Below are positions 6,386-20,436 of a stretch of DNA of 64,000 nucleotides, piece after piece. This stretch comes from Bradyrhizobium diazoefficiens (GTDB lineage: Bacteria > Pseudomonadota > Alphaproteobacteria > Rhizobiales > Xanthobacteraceae), in NCBI RefSeq assembly GCF_016616425.1, contig NZ_CP067101.1, positions 620,001 to 684,000 on the forward strand, read 5' to 3'. The position numbers were made by a program, and so were the translations under genes. Position 1 is the first letter of the stretch. Every line of letters starts with the position of its first letter. The notes under the pieces are model-generated. The model had not been told where the DNA came from. It did no database searches and worked only from the letters and a program-made list of their open reading frames with translations.

Positions 6386-6472
<87 letters not shown>

Positions 6473-6539
6473 TCGACTTCTTGATGTGAAGCAATTCCAA
6501 GAAGTTAAGCCCTTTCAGAGTGTTGCGCTGGCCCCGACT

Positions 6540-6567
6540 GTGTAACAATGGGGTGTAACATTGCTGT
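6540..6567 (+). promoter_or_regulatory. candidate integrase arm-type sites, left end
   Basis: gtgtaaca occurs at 6540-6547 and again at 6553-6560. The overlapping 11-mer aacattgctgt at 6557-6567 recurs exactly at 20340-20350 near the right end, where tgtgtaaca is also found at 20348-20356. Short repeats shared only by the two island ends are expected for integrase or excisionase binding. They also overlap the start region of the integrase gene, so autoregulation is possible. Confidence 0.45.
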
Positions 6568-8219
6568 TCAGGGTGGTTCGGCCGATGCGCCGTGATGGGT
6601 CTCGCATTCCTTCATTCGTGCAGCGCATCCCAGCGGACGTTCGCGCCAAAGCAGCGGGCATCGAGCTGGCTATTCCGCTCGGTGACGGCTTCGTCTTTGT
6701 GACGCCAAGCGAGAGCGCTCAGGCCATTCGGTTCTCGCTTCGTACCGCAGAGCCCAGCGAAGCAAAGGCGCGCCACGGAGTCGCCGCAGCTCATCTGGCC
6801 AGTGTCTGGCAGGCCCTCCGCAACGACGTCCCCGTGCACCTGACCCACCGGCAGGCGACAGCTTTGGCGGGCAAACTCTATCGCGTGTGGGCGGACAGCG
6901 AGAGCCGCGCCCGGAGTGTCGCCATGGTTCACACGCCCGGTGTCGGTTGGGCGCCGGACTCCGAGAACCACGAGGAGCAGGAAGCTCACTGGGCGGCCGT
7001 AACGGAGATGTGGGAGAGGGTCGGCGGCGACGGTGAGGCTAAGAAATTAGAGAAGACACTCGGGCCCATCGTGGACCGCCTCTTGCTGACCAATGGCATC
7101 CACCGAGTGGACGGCGAATCGTGCTCCCTCTTGCTCACTGCCTTTTGGATGGCGCTGAGGGACGCCTTCGCAAGCCGCCACCGCAATGCAGGCGGAGACT
7201 ATTCCCCCGACCCCAGGGCCGATCGCTTCCCGGAGTGGCAGGCCCCCGAAGGTGCACAGAAGGCAACGCCAAAGCGGGCCGCCTCCAAGAACTCCCTCAC
7301 CGGGCTAGTTGAGGATTGGTGGAAGGAAGCCAAGCGGGCCGGTCGCAAGCAGAGCACCTATGAGAGCTATCGCAACTCAATGGCCCGCCTCGTGACGTTC
7401 CTAAAACATGACACCGCGAGCCGGGTGACGCCCGAGGACATCGTTCGCTTCAAGGACTATCGCGTGCAGAGCGGCGTAAGCCCGAAGACCGTGAAGGATA
7501 GCGATCTCGCGGGAATGAAGACGGTGTTCGGTTGGGCGGTGGTCAATCGTCGCCTGCCGAGCAATCCGGCCGAAGGGATCACTATCAAGGTCGGCAAGTC
7601 GCGCAAGCTCCGGTCCAAGGGGTTCTATGACTCGGAGGCGATCGCCATCCTGAAGCACGCCCGCGAGTTCATGCCCGGCCGGGAAGCCCCGAAGCTCGCG
7701 GCGGCCAAGCGGTGGGTGCCGTGGTTGTGCGCTTTCACGGGCGGCCGCGTGGGCGAGATGATCCAGATTCGCAAGGAGGACCTCCGGCGCGAAGGCGAGC
7801 TCTGGGTGCTGCATGTCACGCCCGAAGCCGGGCCGGTGAAGACGGATGAAGCCCGTGATGTCGTGCTACATCGGCAGATCATCGACGAAGGCTTCTTAGC
7901 TTTCTTCGAGGAGTCGAGGGGCGGCTATCTGTTCATAGCGCCGAAGGCCGGCGAGCTAGGGGTGCGCAACGCGGTGAAGACGGCGCGAAACAAGGTCAAT
8001 GAGTTTGTGCGCGACGTGGTGAAGGATAAGAACGTTGATCCAAGCCACGGCTGGCGCCATCGCTTCAAGACTGTCGGTATTGATCAGGGCGTTGAGATGC
8101 GCGTGCTGGACGCCATTCAGGGACATGCACCGCGCAATGTCTCGGAAGGCTACGGGGACGTGACAATCAAGGCGAAGGCCAACGCCATCGCCCTGTTTCC
8201 GACTATCGAGGTCGCATAA
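6561..8219 (+). CDS. int: tyrosine recombinase (island integrase)
   Basis: 552 residues from a TTG at 6561; an ATG at 6585 is an alternative start. The N-terminal 'RRDGSRIPSFVQRIPADVRAKA' resembles the N-terminal domain common in rhizobial island integrases. A SAM-like core-binding domain lies at about 245-345 ('STYESYRNSMARL'), and the catalytic domain at about 355-540. Catalytic residues visible are Arg396 (TGGRVGE), His496 and Arg499 (HGWR), His522 (GHAP) and nucleophile Tyr531 (EGYGDV). It is complete and should integrate and excise the element at the adjacent tRNA-Leu. Confidence 0.93.
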   Translation: MLFRVVRPMRRDGSRIPSFVQRIPADVRAKAAGIELAIPLGDGFVFVTPSESAQAIRFSLRTAEPSEAKARHGVAAAHLASVWQALRNDVPVHLTHRQATALAGKLYRVWADSESRARSVAMVHTPGVGWAPDSENHEEQEAHWAAVTEMWERVGGDGEAKKLEKTLGPIVDRLLLTNGIHRVDGESCSLLLTAFWMALRDAFASRHRNAGGDYSPDPRADRFPEWQAPEGAQKATPKRAASKNSLTGLVEDWWKEAKRAGRKQSTYESYRNSMARLVTFLKHDTASRVTPEDIVRFKDYRVQSGVSPKTVKDSDLAGMKTVFGWAVVNRRLPSNPAEGITIKVGKSRKLRSKGFYDSEAIAILKHAREFMPGREAPKLAAAKRWVPWLCAFTGGRVGEMIQIRKEDLRREGELWVLHVTPEAGPVKTDEARDVVLHRQIIDEGFLAFFEESRGGYLFIAPKAGELGVRNAVKTARNKVNEFVRDVVKDKNVDPSHGWRHRFKTVGIDQGVEMRVLDAIQGHAPRNVSEGYGDVTIKAKANAIALFPTIEVA

Positions 8220-8370: not shown

Positions 8371-8822
8371 GAGCAGGTGGACCGGCTGTCGCGCCTCACG
8401 GATTGGGAAAAACTCAAGGCTGAACTCGCCGCTCGCAAGGTGCGGGTCGTTGACTTGGACTTGCCAACCTCTTGGATGATGACCACCGGCAACGGTGACG
8501 AGTTCACCGGGCGACTATTCGATGCGATCAACAACATGCTGCTGGACATGCTGGCCGCTGTTGCTCGCAAGGACTATGAGGACCGCCGCCGCCGACAGGC
8601 TCAAGGACAGGCAAAGGCCAAGGCCAAGGCCGAAGGCAAGTATAAGGGACGACCGGAGGATACGGAGCGCAATGCCCGTATCGCTCGCCTGCTGGCTGCT
8701 GGACACTCATGGAGGGAAGTACATGGAGTGAAGTAATGGAGTTGGTTGGGTGCAGCCGCACCAGCATAGCGAGGGCAGCCAAGAGGCTGGCAGAGGCTAA
8801 GGCAGAAGCCGGCCAACGCTGA
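8371..8822 (+). pseudogene. serine recombinase remnant (truncated and frameshifted)
   Basis: From 8371 the frame reads 'EQVDRLSRLTDWEKLKAELAARKVRVV', then 'FTGRLFDAINNMLLDMLAAVARKDYEDRRRR' and 'GRPEDTERNARIARLLAAGHSWREV'. This is the second half of a resolvase/invertase catalytic domain and its linker. A stop (tga at 8359) lies in frame just upstream and the part with the catalytic Ser is absent. The helix-turn-helix tail 'CSRTSIARAAKRLAEAKAEAGQR' continues in another frame from about 8736 to 8822. So it is a decayed recombinase, not the open frame 8377-8736 alone. Confidence 0.8.
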
Positions 8823-10922: not shown

Positions 10923-11489
10923 ATGCAATCCTTCCATAAGGCCACCCGCTGGTCGAACCTTTGCGGCCTATGCGAACGGCAGTTCCTTGAGGACATGAAG
11001 CCTGTGTTCGGCAAGCCGCGCAAGGAACAGCTTGCCGCTGCGGAGGCCGTGGTCAGTGATCATTTCGCAGACAAGATCGCCGGTGGCGTCTTTGATGATT
11101 GGGCCTCGCAGATTGGCAGGACGTTCTCGCGGCCGCTGGCGATGCTGCCTGCCCCGCTGGCTTTGAAGCGCCGGAGATACCCACAGCAGCGCTATGACGT
11201 TCTGCTGGCATTGCGGACACGGGATAGGGGAGGAGTAGTCAACCTACTCGCCTTCGCCTTGGCAATCGATGCCTTGATCACCCCGACGATCCCACAACCC
11301 GTCCGCAACGACTACATGATTGCGCTGCTGGGTCAGTGGTTCATGCGGAGAGAAGTTATAGCCGCACGTTCAATCGCTACCGCAGCCGCCGCGAGAAGCC
11401 CGGCGTCATCCGCTGCGCCCGAACGGGCCAGAGGAGTTGACGCGGATCGTGGAGGAGGAGGTGCCAACCACTATGCAGGCGGCGGCTAG
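10923..11489 (+). CDS. hypothetical protein, possibly decayed
   Basis: The open frame may start at the ATG at 10923 (an alternative is 10863). It has plausible globular sequence ('SNLCGLCERQFLEDMKPVFGKPRKEQLAAAEAVVSDHFADKI') and then a low-complexity tail. From about 11410 a different frame reads a better-looking 'PEELTRIVEEEVPTTMQAAARDQ' continuing to a stop near 11573, which suggests a frameshift. The 3' part of that alternative frame is included in the duplicated segment (copy A). No family recognised; confidence in a functional gene is low. Confidence 0.35.
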   Translation: MQSFHKATRWSNLCGLCERQFLEDMKPVFGKPRKEQLAAAEAVVSDHFADKIAGGVFDDWASQIGRTFSRPLAMLPAPLALKRRRYPQQRYDVLLALRTRDRGGVVNLLAFALAIDALITPTIPQPVRNDYMIALLGQWFMRREVIAARSIATAAAARSPASSAAPERARGVDADRGGGGANHYAGGG

Positions 11490-12010
11490 GGACCAGAGCG
11501 CTATGGCGATCTCTCTAGGCATGGTGTCCAACATCACGCGCCGTCACCACAGTTCCGAGCGTGTTATCTTATGAAGTAGATGCTCGTAGCCGCGACGGCG
11601 ATCAGTAGTGCGCCACCCACCATAGCGATGGCAAAACAGACCCGCGCCGGGATCGAATATATATCGAAATGGGGTTCTCTGACGATCACGCGACGGCTCC
11701 TCCCATATTGGAGTTGGAGTGCAACCGACTGTCTTCATGATGGAACCAGTGAATTCCCTTTGTGGGACGGCGTCGAGTCAATTCTTTTCCGCAGTGAACC
11801 AGGGCCACAAGCGAGAACTACTGGGGGCCGCCAAGGAAGGCGGGCTTTCTGACATCTCTCGTGATTGAACCTATTAAATTTCTTTTAATTTATTTAATTC
11901 GTGGTGATTTAATATCTGGTGCCTCAACAATGACGGGATGGACGCTATGCCCTCGGAAGAAGAAGACCGGCGTGAGTTTCTCAAGACTTGCGGAAAATTC
12001 GCGGCCGTCA
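11474..12010. repeat. segmental duplication, copy A
   Basis: About 540 bases closely match 19846-20306, starting at 'tgcaggcggcg' and ending inside the small Tat-signal gene. Shared blocks include 'gatctctctaggcatggtg', 'gcgccacccaccatagcga' and 'ggaaaattcgcgg'. The copies differ by scattered substitutions and some indels. Copy A keeps the downstream gene intact; copy B does not. Confidence 0.85.
11564..11689 (-). CDS. 41-residue single-membrane-segment miniprotein, copy A
   Basis: On the minus strand a GTG at 11689 opens a 41-codon frame ending in TAA. It is preceded by a GGAGGAG Shine-Dalgarno about eight bases upstream. The protein is a polar N-terminus ('MIVREPHF') then one hydrophobic helix ('VCFAIAMVGGALLIAVAATS') and 'IYFIR'. 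The paralogue at 19935-20060 keeps the length, frame, ribosome-binding site and start. Changes between the copies are mostly synonymous or conservative (Val/Ile, Ala/Val, Arg/Lys), which argues that it is translated. Function unknown. Confidence 0.6.
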   Translation of the reverse strand: MIVREPHFDIYSIPARVCFAIAMVGGALLIAVAATSIYFIR

Positions 12011-12668: not shown

Positions 12669-13094
12669 CTAGCGCGTGTTGGCGTATTCGGTTGCTGCCG
12701 CTTTGCAGTCCGCCATCTTTGAGCAGGCCAGCACGGCGCCATCGCGCAGGGCGTTCTCGTAAGAATCGTCTTTGTGGTTCGCGTGAAGATAGGCGCCCAG
12801 TAGGGCCGCGCCGACCAAGATCACGATGTAACGCACCCGCTCCAAAATCAGCCGCGCCTTCGGGTTCTTCTCAATGCGGGTGACCGTCAGCAAGAAGATG
12901 GCCGGTATGCTCACGAGAAGGATGGCAACTCGGATGCCCGACCCGATGTCCAGCCACTTAAGAACTTGATCTTCGAGCCAGAGGCAAAGCGCGATGAATC
13001 CCCAGATAGTGGCCCAATAGCTAGCTAAGTCGAAAATAACCTTAATGGGGTCGTCGTCGTGCGACTTCGCGGCGGTGCTCTCACTGCTGGCCAT
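12669..13094 (-). CDS. hypothetical membrane protein, about three transmembrane segments
   Basis: 141 residues from the ATG at 13094; the frame reaches 13193, but the extra N-terminus overlaps the promoter region of the divergent regulator. A charged start ('TAAKSHDDDP') is followed by hydrophobic segments near residues 28-46, 58-80 and 96-114, then a polar C-terminus with two Cys ('VLACSKMADCKAA'). It is divergent from the XRE regulator with about 117 bases between, so the regulator may control it. Function unknown. Confidence 0.6.
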   Translation of the reverse strand: MASSESTAAKSHDDDPIKVIFDLASYWATIWGFIALCLWLEDQVLKWLDIGSGIRVAILLVSIPAIFLLTVTRIEKNPKARLILERVRYIVILVGAALLGAYLHANHKDDSYENALRDGAVLACSKMADCKAAATEYANTR

Positions 13095-13211
13095 TGGTCC
13101 GTTCCTCACTTGGTGGCCGGCATAATGTAGACGATAGTCATCATGGCTCAACGAAAAAATGGGACTCCTAGTCCGTAGACCGAAAGTCACCACGACGGCC
13201 TGCTGCCGTGG

Positions 13212-13448
13212 ATGGATGATGAGACGGGCATCATTAACGTGTTGGCGGCGGCTGTGCGGAGGACCCGCAAGGGTCTCGGGCTGTCCCAGGAGGATTTGGC
13301 ATTAGAGGCGGGGCTAGATCGGACCTACGTCAGCCAAGTCGAGAGGGGCACCCGCAACTGCACCATCATCGTGCTGGCCCGCTTGGCGAAGGCCCTCAAG
13401 ACGACCCCCGATAGGTTGCTTGTCCCCCAGCGGAAGGGGCAGCCTTAG
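13212..13448 (+). CDS. XRE-family helix-turn-helix regulator
   Basis: 78 residues, essentially one DNA-binding domain: 'VRRTRKGLGLSQEDLALEAGLDRTYVSQVERGTRNCTI' is a canonical Cro/C1-type HTH. The remaining helix ends in 'TTPDRLL'. Proteins of this size control restriction-modification or phage-type switches. Here the natural target is the short divergent intergenic region towards the membrane protein gene. Confidence 0.88.
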   Translation: MDDETGIINVLAAAVRRTRKGLGLSQEDLALEAGLDRTYVSQVERGTRNCTIIVLARLAKALKTTPDRLLVPQRKGQP

Positions 13449-13777
13449 TCGCTATCCTGTCCGGTATCAACGTGGGTGGTCACTTTCAGCACCTCACCCC
13501 TTCTCGCGCGGCAGCGCGGGAGCTTGATCAATTCGGCTCCGCTTGAACAGGCATTCGACGGGCGAAGGCATACCGCTCCTCTTGCTGCCTTACCGCTTCG
13601 CACTGAGCGTCATGCAACGAACACAACATAGAGGAACAGGACATCAAGGAGCGCCCAAAGGTCCCACGCTAACAGAAGCCAACCCTGCTTGCTCATGGCC
13701 CATCAGAGGCGGAGCGGCGATTGGGCTTATGATGTAGGTCAAAAGACGGGTGCCAAGTGTTGTGACCTCAGGGCAGT
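13449..13777. other. no convincing gene
   Basis: About 330 bases downstream of the XRE gene. One open frame (13543-13737) has atypical composition and no ribosome-binding site. Nothing else was recognised. Confidence 0.45.
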
Positions 13778-13973
13778 GGGTGGTGGCCACTCACCCAAGC
13801 TTGGAGGTGACCCTTCGGGGTTGGTGAAGAGTGAGCCCTAGAGGCCGCACTTAGGAGTGAGAATGGAGGAGGGGTGGTGTCACCCTCCCAACTTGAAGGC
13901 ACCCCTTAGAGGACTCCATGGGAATAGACCTCTAAGTTCGGACCCCCCTCCCCCTCTAGCTTCCTCCTCCATT
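13778..13973. other. cluster of inverted repeats next to the polymerase-like gene
   Basis: Four foldable units lie in 200 bases. A near-palindrome is at 13778-13796. ACCC-TTCG-GGGT forms a tetraloop hairpin at 13810-13821. cttagagg (13905-13912) pairs with cctctaag (13929-13936). Enclosing the last, aatggaggagg (13862-13872) pairs with cctcctccatt (13963-13973). The region is non-coding and just downstream of the stop of the polymerase-like gene. It could be a structured 3' end or a replication origin of the element. Confidence 0.5.
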
Positions 13974-14011: not shown

Positions 14012-15301
14012 TTATCGTGGGAAAAATTCTATCGAGACAATCGCGCAGGAAGATCCCGTCGCCATGCTGAAAGCAGCCTGCATTGCGTCCGCCGCAACGT
14101 GCGCCTTCGATTCCGCGACCAGCACCGCGTCATGGAGCGGCAGGGCAGTGACCCCTATGCTCGCAAGATGCCTGATGATCCCGATCAGCAAGTCGCTCTC
14201 GATGCGCATCAATTGAAAGCCGAGCCCAGCACCGAACAAATCAGCGATGGGTGCATGGCGCGCGACTAGCATCTTGATCGCGTCCCGGAGCTTCGTGCCC
14301 GAGGGGAAGTGCTGAAGCGTGTCCTCCGGCCAATTCCGCAAAGGACCGTCCGAGAACAACATCGCGTTCATCAGCGTCTTCCAGCCATCTCGCCCGGAGC
14401 GATCTCCCGCCACGTCATAGATGTCATCTTCCGGCTGCGCCTTGCCCGCCCTGACGTATGCGAGGCGCGGGAAGAGCTGCCTGTAATCGACATCAGCAAT
14501 TCGCTCGCCATCAATCCGGATGCGCTCAAACCGCTCGGCCCGCTCCATGCCCATCCAGAAGGCGCCAGCGAGGCGGCCTCCGTGCTGCCAGTTCGCATTG
14601 TTGAAGATGCGACGAAGAGAGCGGCGATAGGGTGCGATGACCTGGCCGTCCTTCCCTAACGAGAGGCCGGTGTCTTGACCGCTCACCTCGATATCAGCGT
14701 TACGTAGAAACTCATTGATGCGCCGCATCTGTGCCGCAAGCTGGCGGGTCTTGGCTGTCTCCGGGAAGGCAATCGTGGCCGCACGCCCGTCATCATCCTT
14801 GCCTTCCTTCAAGATGATTAGAGCGCGGTCGTCGATTTGCTTAACGCTTCGCCAATCCGGTGGTGCCAACGGCAGATGCTGAGCGAGCGCGGTGCTTGGT
14901 CGAATGAGCGACGGCACCCGCATTCTAGCTGATAGCCTATATCCCCTTCGCTCCTCTTCGATCAGGCCAAGTGATGCAAGCCTGTCTATGACGGATAGGA
15001 AGTGCTGGCCATAAACCGGGTTGGCGCCGCCATCGCCTCGCCAAAGAAAGCCATGCGACCGGGGCACCGCGAGCTTGGGGCTGGACTCGATTGCGCTGAG
15101 CAGGATCAAGTTGCAGGCCAGCGCTTCAACGGCGAGGCCGAACTTCTCCTTATCCGTTTCCTTCCGCGCTCGCTTCCTCGCGCCGCTATTGGTCTCATCG
15201 AGCAGCAGCGCATCGCGCAAACATTGGACCGCATGGACAAGCTCGGTCGTCTTGGCCCGGAGCAGTGGATCGAACCACATTATGCTGGGTAATTGCGTCA
15301 T
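14012..15301 (-). CDS. TV-Pol-like / superfamily-A-type polymerase of a mobile element
   Basis: 429 residues. The C-terminal half carries the landmarks of superfamily-A polymerases in order. Motif A is 'IADVDYRQLFPRLAYVRAG' (Asp270, Asp272), after 'GGRLAGAFWMGM' at 241 and 'IRIDGE' at 261. A motif-B-like helix follows, with Arg304, Lys308 and 'NAMLFSD'. Motif C is 'ALPLHDAVLVAES' (His390-Asp391), preceded by 'ESDLLIGIIRHLASIG'. This order, with Leu-x-Pro-Arg in motif A, fits the TV-Pol family described for transposons and viruses, related to T7 RNA polymerase and Pol A. The N-terminal half (1-235) looks helical and unknown. It is last in a minus-strand cluster with two unknown genes. The assignment rests on motifs read by eye. 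Confidence 0.7.
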   Translation of the reverse strand: MTQLPSIMWFDPLLRAKTTELVHAVQCLRDALLLDETNSGARKRARKETDKEKFGLAVEALACNLILLSAIESSPKLAVPRSHGFLWRGDGGANPVYGQHFLSVIDRLASLGLIEEERRGYRLSARMRVPSLIRPSTALAQHLPLAPPDWRSVKQIDDRALIILKEGKDDDGRAATIAFPETAKTRQLAAQMRRINEFLRNADIEVSGQDTGLSLGKDGQVIAPYRRSLRRIFNNANWQHGGRLAGAFWMGMERAERFERIRIDGERIADVDYRQLFPRLAYVRAGKAQPEDDIYDVAGDRSGRDGWKTLMNAMLFSDGPLRNWPEDTLQHFPSGTKLRDAIKMLVARHAPIADLFGAGLGFQLMRIESDLLIGIIRHLASIGVTALPLHDAVLVAESKAHVAADAMQAAFSMATGSSCAIVSIEFFPR

Positions 15302-15420
15302 ACGGATTTGGAGTGCGTGTTGAAAATGGCCTCCCCGAACCTTCGATATGCACGCACTGCTTCACTCTGACCAGATAGCTCGCGCGAATGCTGCGGCTCG
15401 CGATTTCTTCCGAGCATGGG

Positions 15421-16170
15421 TCAGCTCGCCGTGCGGGGACGCCCATAGCGCTGCCGATGGGCCAGGACGCCGGCGACATGCTTCTCGATGACCCACTCGC
15501 AGGGTTGCTCCAGCATCCGCCCCATCTCCCGTAGAACCCGCCCGGTGGACTTGGGGAAAGCGTGCATTTCGGTCCGCCGCTTCCGGCCTAGATGGTCCTC
15601 CACGACCCACACTCGATGCGTGCCCGAGGCCAGCCGGTGAACCGCCTTGCAAATCTGGACCGTCCGGAACTCCTTTGCGCGGGGCGCCGTGGCGTCGGCC
15701 TTGATCAGCGCGGAGACAGCGAGGACGATCGAGACGATGCGCTGCGGGGGCACGCCTTCAACGCGGAGCCGCGCCAGTCCGATCTTGGCTCGCTTCGTGG
15801 CGGACATCCCTTTGAGGCGCGTCGCAATCTCCACCGGGCCAGAGTCCTGTAGGGACCGTTCCATGTCCGCAATCGCGGCGGCGATAAACTTATCGTTAGC
15901 GGCCCGAAGGCCGACATATGCGGTCGCAGCCGTGATGAATGGCCGCAACTCGGAAGCCTTGAAGCTCGTCCGCCATAGTGACCCATGTCGTTGCCGATGC
16001 TCAACGTGGCGCTTACAGTGGAAAGGGGCGAGGCCTTCGCCGGCCGCTTTCATGCTCTGGCGCCCACAGCCCGGAATAGCGCAAGTGGCTGCTGCTGCGA
16101 GCGGCCCCAATCGGATGCTCTCCTTCAGGGCAGCTCGACGCTTCGCCCGCCTGACGTTAAGTTGCAGCAC
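15421..16170 (-). CDS. hypothetical protein with Cys/His zinc-finger-like N-terminus
   Basis: About 250 residues from a GTG at 16170, which overlaps the end of the upstream gene by about 14 bases. Near residue 28 the spacing 'CAIPGCGRQ ... FHCKRHVEHRQRHGS' resembles the treble-clef-like zinc motif seen ahead of phage HNH proteins. No HNH catalytic motif follows. The rest is basic and helical ('KRAKIGLARLRVEGVPPQRIVSIVLAVSALI'), compatible with nucleic-acid binding. It sits between an unknown gene and the polymerase-like gene in one direction, probably one transcript. Confidence 0.6.
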   Translation of the reverse strand: MLQLNVRRAKRRAALKESIRLGPLAAAATCAIPGCGRQSMKAAGEGLAPFHCKRHVEHRQRHGSLWRTSFKASELRPFITAATAYVGLRAANDKFIAAAIADMERSLQDSGPVEIATRLKGMSATKRAKIGLARLRVEGVPPQRIVSIVLAVSALIKADATAPRAKEFRTVQICKAVHRLASGTHRVWVVEDHLGRKRRTEMHAFPKSTGRVLREMGRMLEQPCEWVIEKHVAGVLAHRQRYGRPRTAS

Positions 16171-16912
16171 CCGACTGGCTCCGAGCTTGCAGCCGATACT
16201 TCTCGTGCACCGAGTCGGCCAGATGCAGCGCGACGCGCAACAGCATCTCGTAATCAACCAACGTTAGGTCCGTCGATGCCAGGGTGGAATTGTCTTTGAG
16301 TTGAGCGCCATATTGCCGCACCAACTCTCGCTCAAAGATGTCCAACGCCTTCCGGATGACGTCCTCCCGGCCCTTGGACACATCTCGCGTCTTTTGTCCG
16401 CGCTTGCGGATGAGATTTTTGCCCACCCAGTAGAGCCGGACGCGACGGCAATCATGGTGGGCATTGTCATGGTGCTTCGTATCCCCCCAGATCGGCGTGT
16501 TGGCAATCATGCGATGGAGATTGATGTTCTGCCGTTTGTTGGAGCCTGCGAAGGCTGCGTAAAACCACTCGCCCATGTTCGAACGGTCTAGGACGATGCG
16601 GCCGCCCGGCAACTCCAGCAACAGCATCACCACGAAGTACCAAGGGTCAAAATGGCGGGGGTTTTCTGCCCTCGAATCCTCGATGAGCACCGACACGGTT
16701 GGCCACTCAATGCCGTCTACGCTCTGCTCGTACACTGCGCCTAGAAGTGTACTCGACGGAAACCGAGCAGTGAGAAGGGGGACAACATCAGGCAGAGTCT
16801 CTCGGTCACCTTGCACATATGCGTTAGATTGATCGAGATAGGTCAGGCAAACATTGAGAGGTTTCGCAACTTGCTCGGCGTACTCGCTAGGTGCTGCGCA
16901 CTGGTCAGTCAT
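16157..16912 (-). CDS. hypothetical protein of the polymerase cluster
   Basis: About 251 residues from the ATG at 16912; an ATG at 16942 is also in frame. The middle has 'FDPWYFVVMLLLELPGGRIVLDRSNMGEWFYAAFAG', a hydrophobic core that is not an obvious membrane segment, then a basic stretch ('HHDCRRVRLYWVGKNLIRKRGQKTRDVSKGRED') and a helical end. No known family is recognised. Its stop overlaps the start of the next gene, so the three minus-strand genes 16912-14012 are probably co-expressed. Confidence 0.6.
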   Translation of the reverse strand: MTDQCAAPSEYAEQVAKPLNVCLTYLDQSNAYVQGDRETLPDVVPLLTARFPSSTLLGAVYEQSVDGIEWPTVSVLIEDSRAENPRHFDPWYFVVMLLLELPGGRIVLDRSNMGEWFYAAFAGSNKRQNINLHRMIANTPIWGDTKHHDNAHHDCRRVRLYWVGKNLIRKRGQKTRDVSKGREDVIRKALDIFERELVRQYGAQLKDNSTLASTDLTLVDYEMLLRVALHLADSVHEKYRLQARSQSGAAT

Positions 16913-17066
16913 TTCCTCATTCCATGAGCGGTGATTCAGCATCCCCTTAACGAGGACGCATGTCTTTACGTAAGAACTCGCGGCTGCATTTGCTAGGATT
17001 CACCAATGGAAAAAACCAAATCTCACTCTTGAATCGAACCGTGTGGCAGACTCGTTTTCGTTCGGC

Positions 17067-17765
17067 CTATCGCATGCTTGCCAAGCGTGCTTCGATCAAC
17101 GTGACCTGTGGTGCTGACCACTTCGCTCCACCCCTTGCCGTAGGGATGCCCTGCTCGGTCAATGCTCGTGCGACGTCGGTAGGTGACGTGATGCCCTTCG
17201 CTCGGAGCTTCATGAGTAAGGGGGCTATGTCCGCTGCCCGTCTGTCAGCAAGCCGAGATTGCTCGTCCCTCCCGCGTGCTTGTGCATCACTGGAGAGGGC
17301 CCCTCCTCGATGTCCGCCTAGCCGTTGACCCCTTGCCTTCGCTGCTGCAAGGGCTGCCTTCGTGCGTGCCGATATCAAGCCTGCCTCTAACTCCGCGACG
17401 GCCGCCATCTGTTGGAGCATGAAGCGCCCGGTGGGTCCCTCGATGGCGGGCAGGTCAGCGAAGCGCACGTCCACCCCTGCCTCTAGCAACCGCTCTAGGA
17501 AGCCTACCGAGCGGGTCAGCCGGTCCACCTTCGCGACCACAAGGGCTGCCCGGTGAAGACGCGCTGCGGTCAATGCTTCGTCCAGTGCGGGTCTGTCGTT
17601 GCGACGTCCGCTCTCCACTTCCGTGAACTCAGCTATGACGTTCGCCAGCCCATCTCCGAGGTGGTTGGCTACGGCGGCCCTCTGAGCATCGAGGCCTAAG
17701 CCTGATTGGCCCTGCTTGCGGGTGGACACTCGATAGTAGGCAACAAATCGGCGCTTCACGATCAC
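17067..17765 (-). CDS. serine recombinase (resolvase/invertase family)
   Basis: 232 residues from a GTG at 17765 with a 'gaggagg' ribosome-binding site. The catalytic Ser14 is in 'YYRVSTRKQGQSGLGLDAQ'; 'ESGRRNDRPAL' and 'VVAKVDRLTRSVGFL' supply the conserved Arg residues, and 'GRFMLQQMAAVAELE' precedes the long E helix. The C-terminal part 'GITSPTDVARALTEQGIPTARGGAKWSAPQV' is the small DNA-binding domain. It seems complete, unlike the remnant at 8371. It could invert or resolve DNA within the island. Confidence 0.9.
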   Translation of the reverse strand: MIVKRRFVAYYRVSTRKQGQSGLGLDAQRAAVANHLGDGLANVIAEFTEVESGRRNDRPALDEALTAARLHRAALVVAKVDRLTRSVGFLERLLEAGVDVRFADLPAIEGPTGRFMLQQMAAVAELEAGLISARTKAALAAAKARGQRLGGHRGGALSSDAQARGRDEQSRLADRRAADIAPLLMKLRAKGITSPTDVARALTEQGIPTARGGAKWSAPQVTLIEARLASMR

Positions 17766-17797: not shown

Positions 17798-17813
17798 GTC
17801 AACGAGCGTTGAC
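17798..17813. promoter_or_regulatory. candidate operator/res palindrome upstream of the recombinase
   Basis: GTCAAC (17798-17803) and GTTGAC (17808-17813) form a perfect palindrome with a four-base centre, about 35 bases before the recombinase start. Serine recombinases commonly bind inverted half-sites in their own promoter. This is a positional inference. Confidence 0.4.
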
Positions 17814-19706: not shown

Positions 19707-19934
19707 GGCTCGCCTCACCATCTGCGAGCCCCCGAATTAAATACGCTGGGATCAAGAAGGTTTCGGTTCCGTCGTCAAAGCGAGCGCAGCTCCGGGCTGC
19801 TCAAGGCCTAAGCGCATTTTCCTCGCCGTGCGCTAGAGGCAGTTGTGCAGGCGGCGACTAGGGACTAGAGCGTAATGGCGATCTCTCTAGGCATGGTGCC
19901 CAACATCACGCGCAGTACCACAGTTCCGAGCTCG

Positions 19935-20060
19935 TCATTTTATGAAGTAGATGCTCGTAACCGCTACGGCGATCAGTAGTGCGCCACCCACCATAGCGAC
20001 GGCAAAACAAATGCGCGCCGGGATCGAGTATGCATCGGAATGGGGTTCTCTGATGATCAC
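19935..20060 (-). CDS. 41-residue single-membrane-segment miniprotein, copy B
   Basis: GTG start at 20060, TGA stop, 41 codons, with GGAGGAG about eight bases upstream, exactly as in copy A. 'MIIREPHSDAYSIPARICF' leads into 'AVAMVGGALLIAVAVTS' and 'IYFIK'. Most differences from copy A fall at third positions or exchange Val/Ile, Ala/Val and Arg/Lys, while the flanking non-coding sequence also carries indels. That pattern supports a translated gene kept in both copies. Confidence 0.6.
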   Translation of the reverse strand: MIIREPHSDAYSIPARICFAVAMVGGALLIAVAVTSIYFIK

Positions 20061-20235
20061 GCTACTGCTCCTCCCGTGTTGGAGGTGGAGTGCAATCGGC
20101 TGTCTTTCATCAACGGAACGAGTGAATCGCCTTTTTAGGACGGCGTCGAGTCAATTCAGTTCCGCAGTGCACCAAGGCCACAAGCGAAAACCACTGAACG
20201 AGGGAGCGGCCAAGTCAGGGCCTCACAATCGCGGG

Positions 20236-20306
20236 ATAGACGCTATGCCCCGGAAGATGAAGACCGGCGCAAGTTTCTCAAGATTTGCGGAAAATTCGCG
20301 GCGTCA
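20236..20306 (+). pseudogene. truncated second copy of the Tat-signal gene
   Basis: After 'gacgctatgccc' one base is lost relative to copy A. The frame then gives 'PEDEDRRKFLKICGKFAAS', with the twin arginines kept, but similarity ends at about 20306. No hydrophobic or His-rich part follows. It is a broken paralogue produced by the segmental duplication. Confidence 0.75.
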
Positions 20307-20418: not shown

Positions 20419-20436
20419 TCCTTTCCTGGGCACCAT
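20419..20436 (+). repeat. attR: right copy of the 18-bp integration direct repeat
   Basis: Exact copy of the tRNA-Leu 3' end at 6456-6473. Flanking sequence differs on the left side, as expected when only the tRNA end is duplicated by integration. Beyond it lies ordinary chromosome (MFS gene). Confidence 0.9.

Follow-up and report, generated by a model that had tools for sequence, protein, structure and literature searches.

The window examined here, a stretch of 64,000 nucleotides of Bradyrhizobium diazoefficiens (G000:C1:620001-684000, in a genome consisting of a single 7.14-Mb contig), harbors an integrated element that carries a cluster of minus-strand genes in the order serine recombinase, g1, g2 and pol. 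The pol gene encodes a TV-Pol-type polymerase, g2 its constant neighbor, and g1 lies in an interval, termed the slot, between the recombinase and g2. Genes g1 and g2 overlap by 14 nt, and gene order together with this overlap suggests that the cluster may lie on one transcript; promoter-like sites were no more numerous than expected by chance, and none was found upstream of the cluster. A preliminary description of this DNA had proposed three minus-strand genes, two of them overlapping upstream of the polymerase gene, and this layout was confirmed. Of the bounds it gave to the cluster (14012-16912), the pol end was correct, while g1 reaches 16942, with 16912 being an internal ATG. The features of the element are listed in the table below.

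Features of the integrated element and its polymerase cluster (positions in the window)
Feature	Position	Strand	Remarks
tRNA-Leu (CAG), target gene	6386..6472	+	Also the sole Rfam match
attL core, 18 bp	6456..6473	+	3' end of tRNA-Leu
Tyrosine integrase, 552 amino acids	6561..8219	+	PF00589 (E 1.1e-6) and SAM-like domains
174-amino-acid protein adjoining the helix-turn-helix gene	12669..13193	-	Kept in tRNA-Leu elements; no Pfam match
XRE/Cro-type helix-turn-helix protein, integration/control backbone	13212..13448	+	PF01381 (E 2.7e-14); travels with the integrase in relatives
Conserved non-coding stretch, two motif copies	13771..13894	-	Candidate origin or priming site
pol, TV-Pol-type family A polymerase, 429 amino acids	14012..15301	-	Motifs, alignment, predicted fold
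g2, constant partner, 249 amino acids	15421..16170	-	GTG start; helical, CCCH-type site, beta hairpin
g1, slot gene, 261 amino acids	16157..16942	-	Family of seven members here; no convincing known relative
Small serine recombinase, upstream of slot	17067..17765	-	PF00239 (E 6.6e-29)
attR core, 18 bp	20419..20436	+	Identical to attL

Alignment of 73 Pol sequences, down to 19% identity with the window protein, showed R231, R243, R257, D272, Y295, R304, K308, H390 and D391 to be invariant. The palm aspartates D272, within VDYRQLFPRLAY (residues 271-282), and D391, within LPLHDAV (residues 387-393), as well as R304 and K308 of the fingers RxxxK motif, were accordingly kept in 73/73 rows, and these landmarks stand in the order and at the positions given in the preliminary description. 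D293 was found in 71/73 rows and, on our reading, could be the Asp of the published TV-Pol fingers motif. R243, located within GGRL in all 73 rows, is a candidate for the template-contacting hairpin arginine, an assignment that depends on the Pol I register, as R231 and R257 are equally invariant. Structure prediction gave a clear match to the family A polymerase fold, chiefly over residues 157-429, which form the polymerase domain (from about residue 157) following an N-terminal part (1-156). In the model, a helix at residues 183-201 precedes the palm and could be one of the two antiparallel helices published for the TV-Pol thumb. Prediction of the palm structure and conservation of the Asp residues among homologues had been proposed beforehand as checks, and both, along with the motifs, bear out a TV-Pol-like polymerase. 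In profile comparison, hhalign placed Pol on Pol I in the correct register, though with weak scores (P 0.019-0.028). Pol had no match in Pfam or NCBIfam and only chance-level rows in PDB, and the Pfam matches of the 73 family members likewise included no polymerase family.

The Cys/His finger that had been noticed in one of the upstream proteins is located in g2, where it forms a CCCH-type site (C30, C35, C52 and H55). Among 92 aligned sequences, C52 was invariant and C30, C35, H55, H58 and H62 were conserved at 90% or more. The predicted model of g2 consists of 10 helices of at least four residues and one two-stranded hairpin (185-203); on this mainly helical model, a single-stranded DNA-binding protein (SSB)/OB fold was rejected.

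The interval bounded by the two att (attachment) cores contains the tyrosine integrase, the helix-turn-helix protein, the polymerase cluster and small open reading frames (ORFs) of no known kind. A single core joins the left flank (88.7% identity over 300 columns) to the right flank (82% over 500 columns) in the relative G009 (L352). This empty site and the att sites bear out the earlier claim of an integrated island. The integrase is 85-90% identical in the relatives L014, L016, L017 and L026.

Among the close relatives of pol that carry a name, most come from Bradyrhizobium; the pol profile matched 48/265 Bradyrhizobium genomes and 19/289 genomes of the class (own genome counted in both), and the Rhodopseudomonas palustris relatives share 62-63% identity. 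The window genome itself carries a second pol copy (50% identity, G000:C1:1264632-1265885) adjoining an integrase and tRNA-Phe. Phage records gave no match to pol, three plasmid records matched at 23-31%, and nine distant relatives were found in viral contigs. The partner g2 was detected in 27/265 Bradyrhizobium genomes, with just weak matches in three of these, and, fused or not, in none of the 289 class genomes beyond the own genome (1/289). Strong g2 matches were found at 27 Bradyrhizobium loci, and by our reading 24 of these have a pol match within ∼1 kb, the exceptions being G029, G513 and G376.

Genomic context was analyzed in 51 TV-Pol loci with flanks, some of them short; same-place duplicates were excluded and matches from the genus only partly included. 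Within 6 kb, a tyrosine recombinase was present in 32 loci, a serine recombinase in 33 and a tRNA in 29; in 24, the tRNA and the tyrosine recombinase were no more than 400 nt apart. The corresponding counts in 20 control regions, taken from ten of the same genomes, were 1, 0, 1 and 0; because iteration of the recombinase profiles drew on ORFs of these TV-Pol loci, the comparison favors the case set. All 23 loci with both g2 and pol (excluding L028, whose weak g2 lies on the opposite strand) have a serine recombinase ORF, in some cases a fragment, within 6 kb of pol. In L126, an integrase (residues 1-597) and a polymerase (622-1038) occupy one 1046-amino-acid frame (L126:4508-7648); the integrase part has integrase-type Pfam matches, with PF00589 below cut-off, and the fusion is a single case in which a frameshift error is possible. 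In L106, the integrase and pol genes overlap by 4 nt.

On the 3' side of pol, conservation among relatives extends over about 200 nt, a stretch that includes two copies of the motif GGGTGA-N(1-7)-ACCACCC (13872-13885 and 13778-13796), the sole ones in 64 kb. The motif was absent from 100 shuffles, a figure that alone means little as the pattern was derived from the same sequence. L102 and 12 of the 23 g2-pol loci have the exact motif; in each of these records it is confined to the pol strand, 99-220 nt past the stop codon of pol.

The three genes do not make up a single conserved trio: g2 is a constant neighbor of pol, while g1 occupies an exchangeable slot. The slot could be classed in 21/23 g2-pol loci, L027 and L029 differing in gene order. 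Relatives of g1 fill it in seven loci; that of L014 is only 23% identical to the window g1, while the polymerases are 90% identical. A match of g1 to GST_C exceeded the Pfam cut-off (E 2.1e-4) but was set aside, as it holds in only one of the seven members. A second, RNase H-like set comprises six rows, of which L018, L104 and L021 were placed by eye without an RNase_H match; Pfam RNase_H matches were above cut-off in L022 (E 1.2e-8) and L098 (E 3.1e-6) and below it in L016 (3.5e-4), and the six-row profile matched RNase HI in PDB (E 5.5e-10). The third family, A7 (L015, L019, L024, L094, L096 and L101; 34-72% identity to the first row), appears LAGLIDADG-like by eye and had no match in PDB. 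The slot gene of L025, outside A7, gave a sub-threshold LAGLIDADG_3 match in Pfam (E 0.024) and weak PDB rows (E 0.19 and 0.45), and that of L020 falls outside all three sets. Profile comparison of g1 with the other two sets showed no kinship (P 0.32 and 0.23).

Exchange of the slot is visible in the DNA, as similarity of the window to L014, L016 and L018 spans pol and g2 up to 16089-16144, breaks, and returns at 17046-17092 within the recombinase gene; similarity to L015 ends at 16131. A clade of seven rows in the pol tree (support 100/100) includes four slots with g1, two with RNase H-like genes (L016, L018) and one with A7, and over 18 labeled rows the tree requires at least 8 slot changes, the largest value possible for this minimum being 11, with eye-labeled rows included and several forks open. 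In L022, the first of the catalytic positions of RNase HI (wild-type numbering, the aligned PDB row being a mutant) is kept as an acid, and the other three are Ala, Pro, and Asn or Thr. At the position of the metal-binding acid of LAGLIDADG enzymes, A7 has Phe in five of six rows and Leu in one. On these residues, several of the slot proteins resemble catalytically inactive nuclease folds, for which a binding role would fit.

TV-Pol was described by Iyer, Abhiman and Aravind in 2008, with Rhodopseudomonas palustris among the listed carriers, neighborhoods containing a resolvase, an integrase and a helical neighbor, and a predicted primase-polymerase activity (PMC2579912). The excerpted text of a 2020 paper on the Staphylococcus member CCPol-MP demonstrates priming of DNA synthesis and states that its authors were aware of no other biochemically characterized TV-Pol (PMC7581432). 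The earlier statement that no function had been described was therefore too strong. The window element shares with TV-Pol elements the catalytic Arg/Asp/RxxxK/Asp pattern, the location in small mobile elements, γδ-type resolvase and λ-type integrase neighbors and a helical stand-alone neighbor protein; g2, which is mainly helical, is a possible counterpart of TV-PolN, the all-helical stand-alone protein of a subset of TV-Pols. As architectures, the 2008 paper names a D5 helicase at the C-terminus, a domain at the N-terminus and a single replacement of the thumb (PMC2579912); tRNA ends with an empty site, a swap slot, a 3' repeat block and an integrase-Pol fusion are absent from its main text. 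The swap slot, the fusion and tRNA-ended Bradyrhizobium TV-Pol elements were absent from the TV-Pol literature examined, although the 2008 supplement may list neighborhoods, and no literature on TV-Pol with rhizobia was found. As far as the excerpted texts go, CCPol-MP of SCCmec and the PolA-SSB primases resemble the window module in pairing a family A polymerase of a mobile element with a small partner from the same operon, and in having repeats 3' of the operon (PMC7581432, PMC10061031). According to the same texts, CCPol-MP differs in its OB-fold MP partner (helical g2 with a zinc-type site here), a helicase in the operon (none in the 23 element ORFs scanned here) and a large serine recombinase with an rlmH site (tyrosine integrase and tRNA site here). 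SaPI-type islands, as portrayed in the excerpt of PMC7581432, are likewise small and integrase-bearing, with replication genes alongside iteron-like repeats, but have a primase and Rep helicase in place of a polymerase and g2.

Taken together, we infer that the best reading of the cluster is a self-replication module; with moderate confidence, we regard it as the module that initiates replication of a small tRNA-integrating element. The element would excise as a circle, which a g2-Pol complex would prime and copy, g2 holding or opening the template and Pol making and then extending the primer. The start site would be the conserved block of repeats on the 3' side of pol, and the slot protein could be an exchangeable DNA- or hybrid-binding accessory that aids site choice. 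Unwinding would come from host enzymes, since no helicase was found among the element ORFs scanned. Several observations weigh against this reading. Pfam scans of 23 element ORFs (a subset of all) showed no helicase or primase family, unlike TV-Pol and SCCmec systems, which often have D5-like or Cch helicases. The ribose-selecting E174 and F225 of CCPol correspond to Phe277 and Asn312 of Pol, so that the nucleotide preference of CCPol is not transferable. The repeat is exact in only 12/23 g2-pol loci, and in L026, whose pol is 35% identical, the repeat stretch is present with the integrase backbone and not with pol; hence, the stretch may belong to that backbone. Neither recombinase was found in 8/51 TV-Pol loci.

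The polymerase might instead serve repair synthesis, filling gaps or copying strands while the element integrates, excises or undergoes serine-recombinase exchange, and not replicating it. In 6/31 loci drawn, pol is immediately preceded by a same-strand tyrosine recombinase gene, and in one more the two are fused; this and the serine recombinase ORF near all 23 g2-pol loci would fit, but tyrosine and serine recombination is gap-free, and g2 and the repeat block are left unexplained; this is considered unlikely. Improbable, too, is a two-piece polymerase of the T7/mitochondrial type, in which g2 would act in trans as the template-opening domain allowing a primer-free start and the slot gene, recruited again and again from unrelated folds that in part look like inactive nucleases, would set the start site. 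Pol shares the catalytic fold of single-subunit RNA polymerases, and the fold of g2 may weakly resemble their N-terminal part; the module differs in having two polypeptides, a short fingers-palm stretch (82 residues from K to HD, compared with 180 in T7 RNA polymerase) and, at the K+8 position of T7 Tyr639, Phe316 (Phe in 56/73 rows, Tyr in 0/73). A match of g2 to the T7 N-terminal domain by sequence was not supported (P 0.42); the comparison is underpowered, as even the catalytic half of T7 RNA polymerase scored only P 0.11 with Pol. Of the eight comparisons made, that of Pol residues 1-160 with T7 1-330 gave P 0.053 and was not used. A search for RPOL_N in three genomes gave no match anywhere and was uninformative, the controls being equally silent. 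That the same two proteins form a split transcription enzyme, g2 as the promoter-opening part and Pol as the catalytic part of a T7-like RNA polymerase transcribing the element from the repeat block, is thought quite unlikely; the hallmarks of such enzymes, Tyr639 and the specificity loop, are lacking in Pol.

Little credence is given to a phage-defence cargo made up of the polymerase and the swapped slot gene. Its location in an island would suit such a role, polymerase-like enzymes occur among defence systems, and rapid exchange of one gene next to constant ones is typical of conflict; however, none of pol, g2, g1 and the recombinase had a PADLOC match at E 0.01, and pol behaves as a backbone gene would, accompanying integrases at many tRNA sites. 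A decaying, functionless remnant is very improbable. The element does contain a serine recombinase fragment and a 0.5-kb partial duplication, and some relatives are broken (g2 split in L021, pol short in L102), but pol, g2, g1, the integrase and the recombinase are open frames with relatives at 80-94% identity, and the catalytic residues of Pol are invariant.

Some further observations concern the structure of these elements. The serine recombinase fragment lies just inside the integrase gene (8377-8736; PF00239 E 2.8e-4, below cut-off) and suggests a mosaic element. The direct repeat of ∼0.5 kb (11474-12005 and 19846-20302; 87-92% identity in pieces) flanks the polymerase module; it was rejected as element ends, being absent at the matching places in 16 related loci, and is probably an internal duplication of the window element. 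A perfect palindrome, GTCAACG-AG-CGTTGAC (17798-17813), upstream of the serine recombinase gene is a possible operator or recombination site. In PADLOC, the 12669-13193 protein had a single weak candidate match (E 0.0027). L021 and L022 are two g2-pol modules lying no more than ∼22 kb from each other on one contig of Bradyrhizobium yuanmingense, the g2 of L021 being split into two frames. L028 is a ∼10-kb TV-Pol element between two tRNA-Glu copies (6546-6647 and 16506-16607, 94% over 102 bp) with its weak g2 relative on the opposite strand, and in L015 a direct repeat of ∼120 bp (76%; 504-618 and 14497-14614) that overlaps tRNA-Glu and spans the module possibly marks the element ends.

As a replication-initiation module, the cluster would offer a compact, testable TV-Pol with a different partner and different nucleotide-selecting residues from those of CCPol, and its swapped accessory gene a natural experiment on the minimal needs of a primase-polymerase for starting. 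The module bears on the origin of primer-free synthesis in the Pol A/T7 lineage; if the two-piece polymerase were true, these elements would show a route from a primer-dependent Pol A core to a self-starting polymerase.
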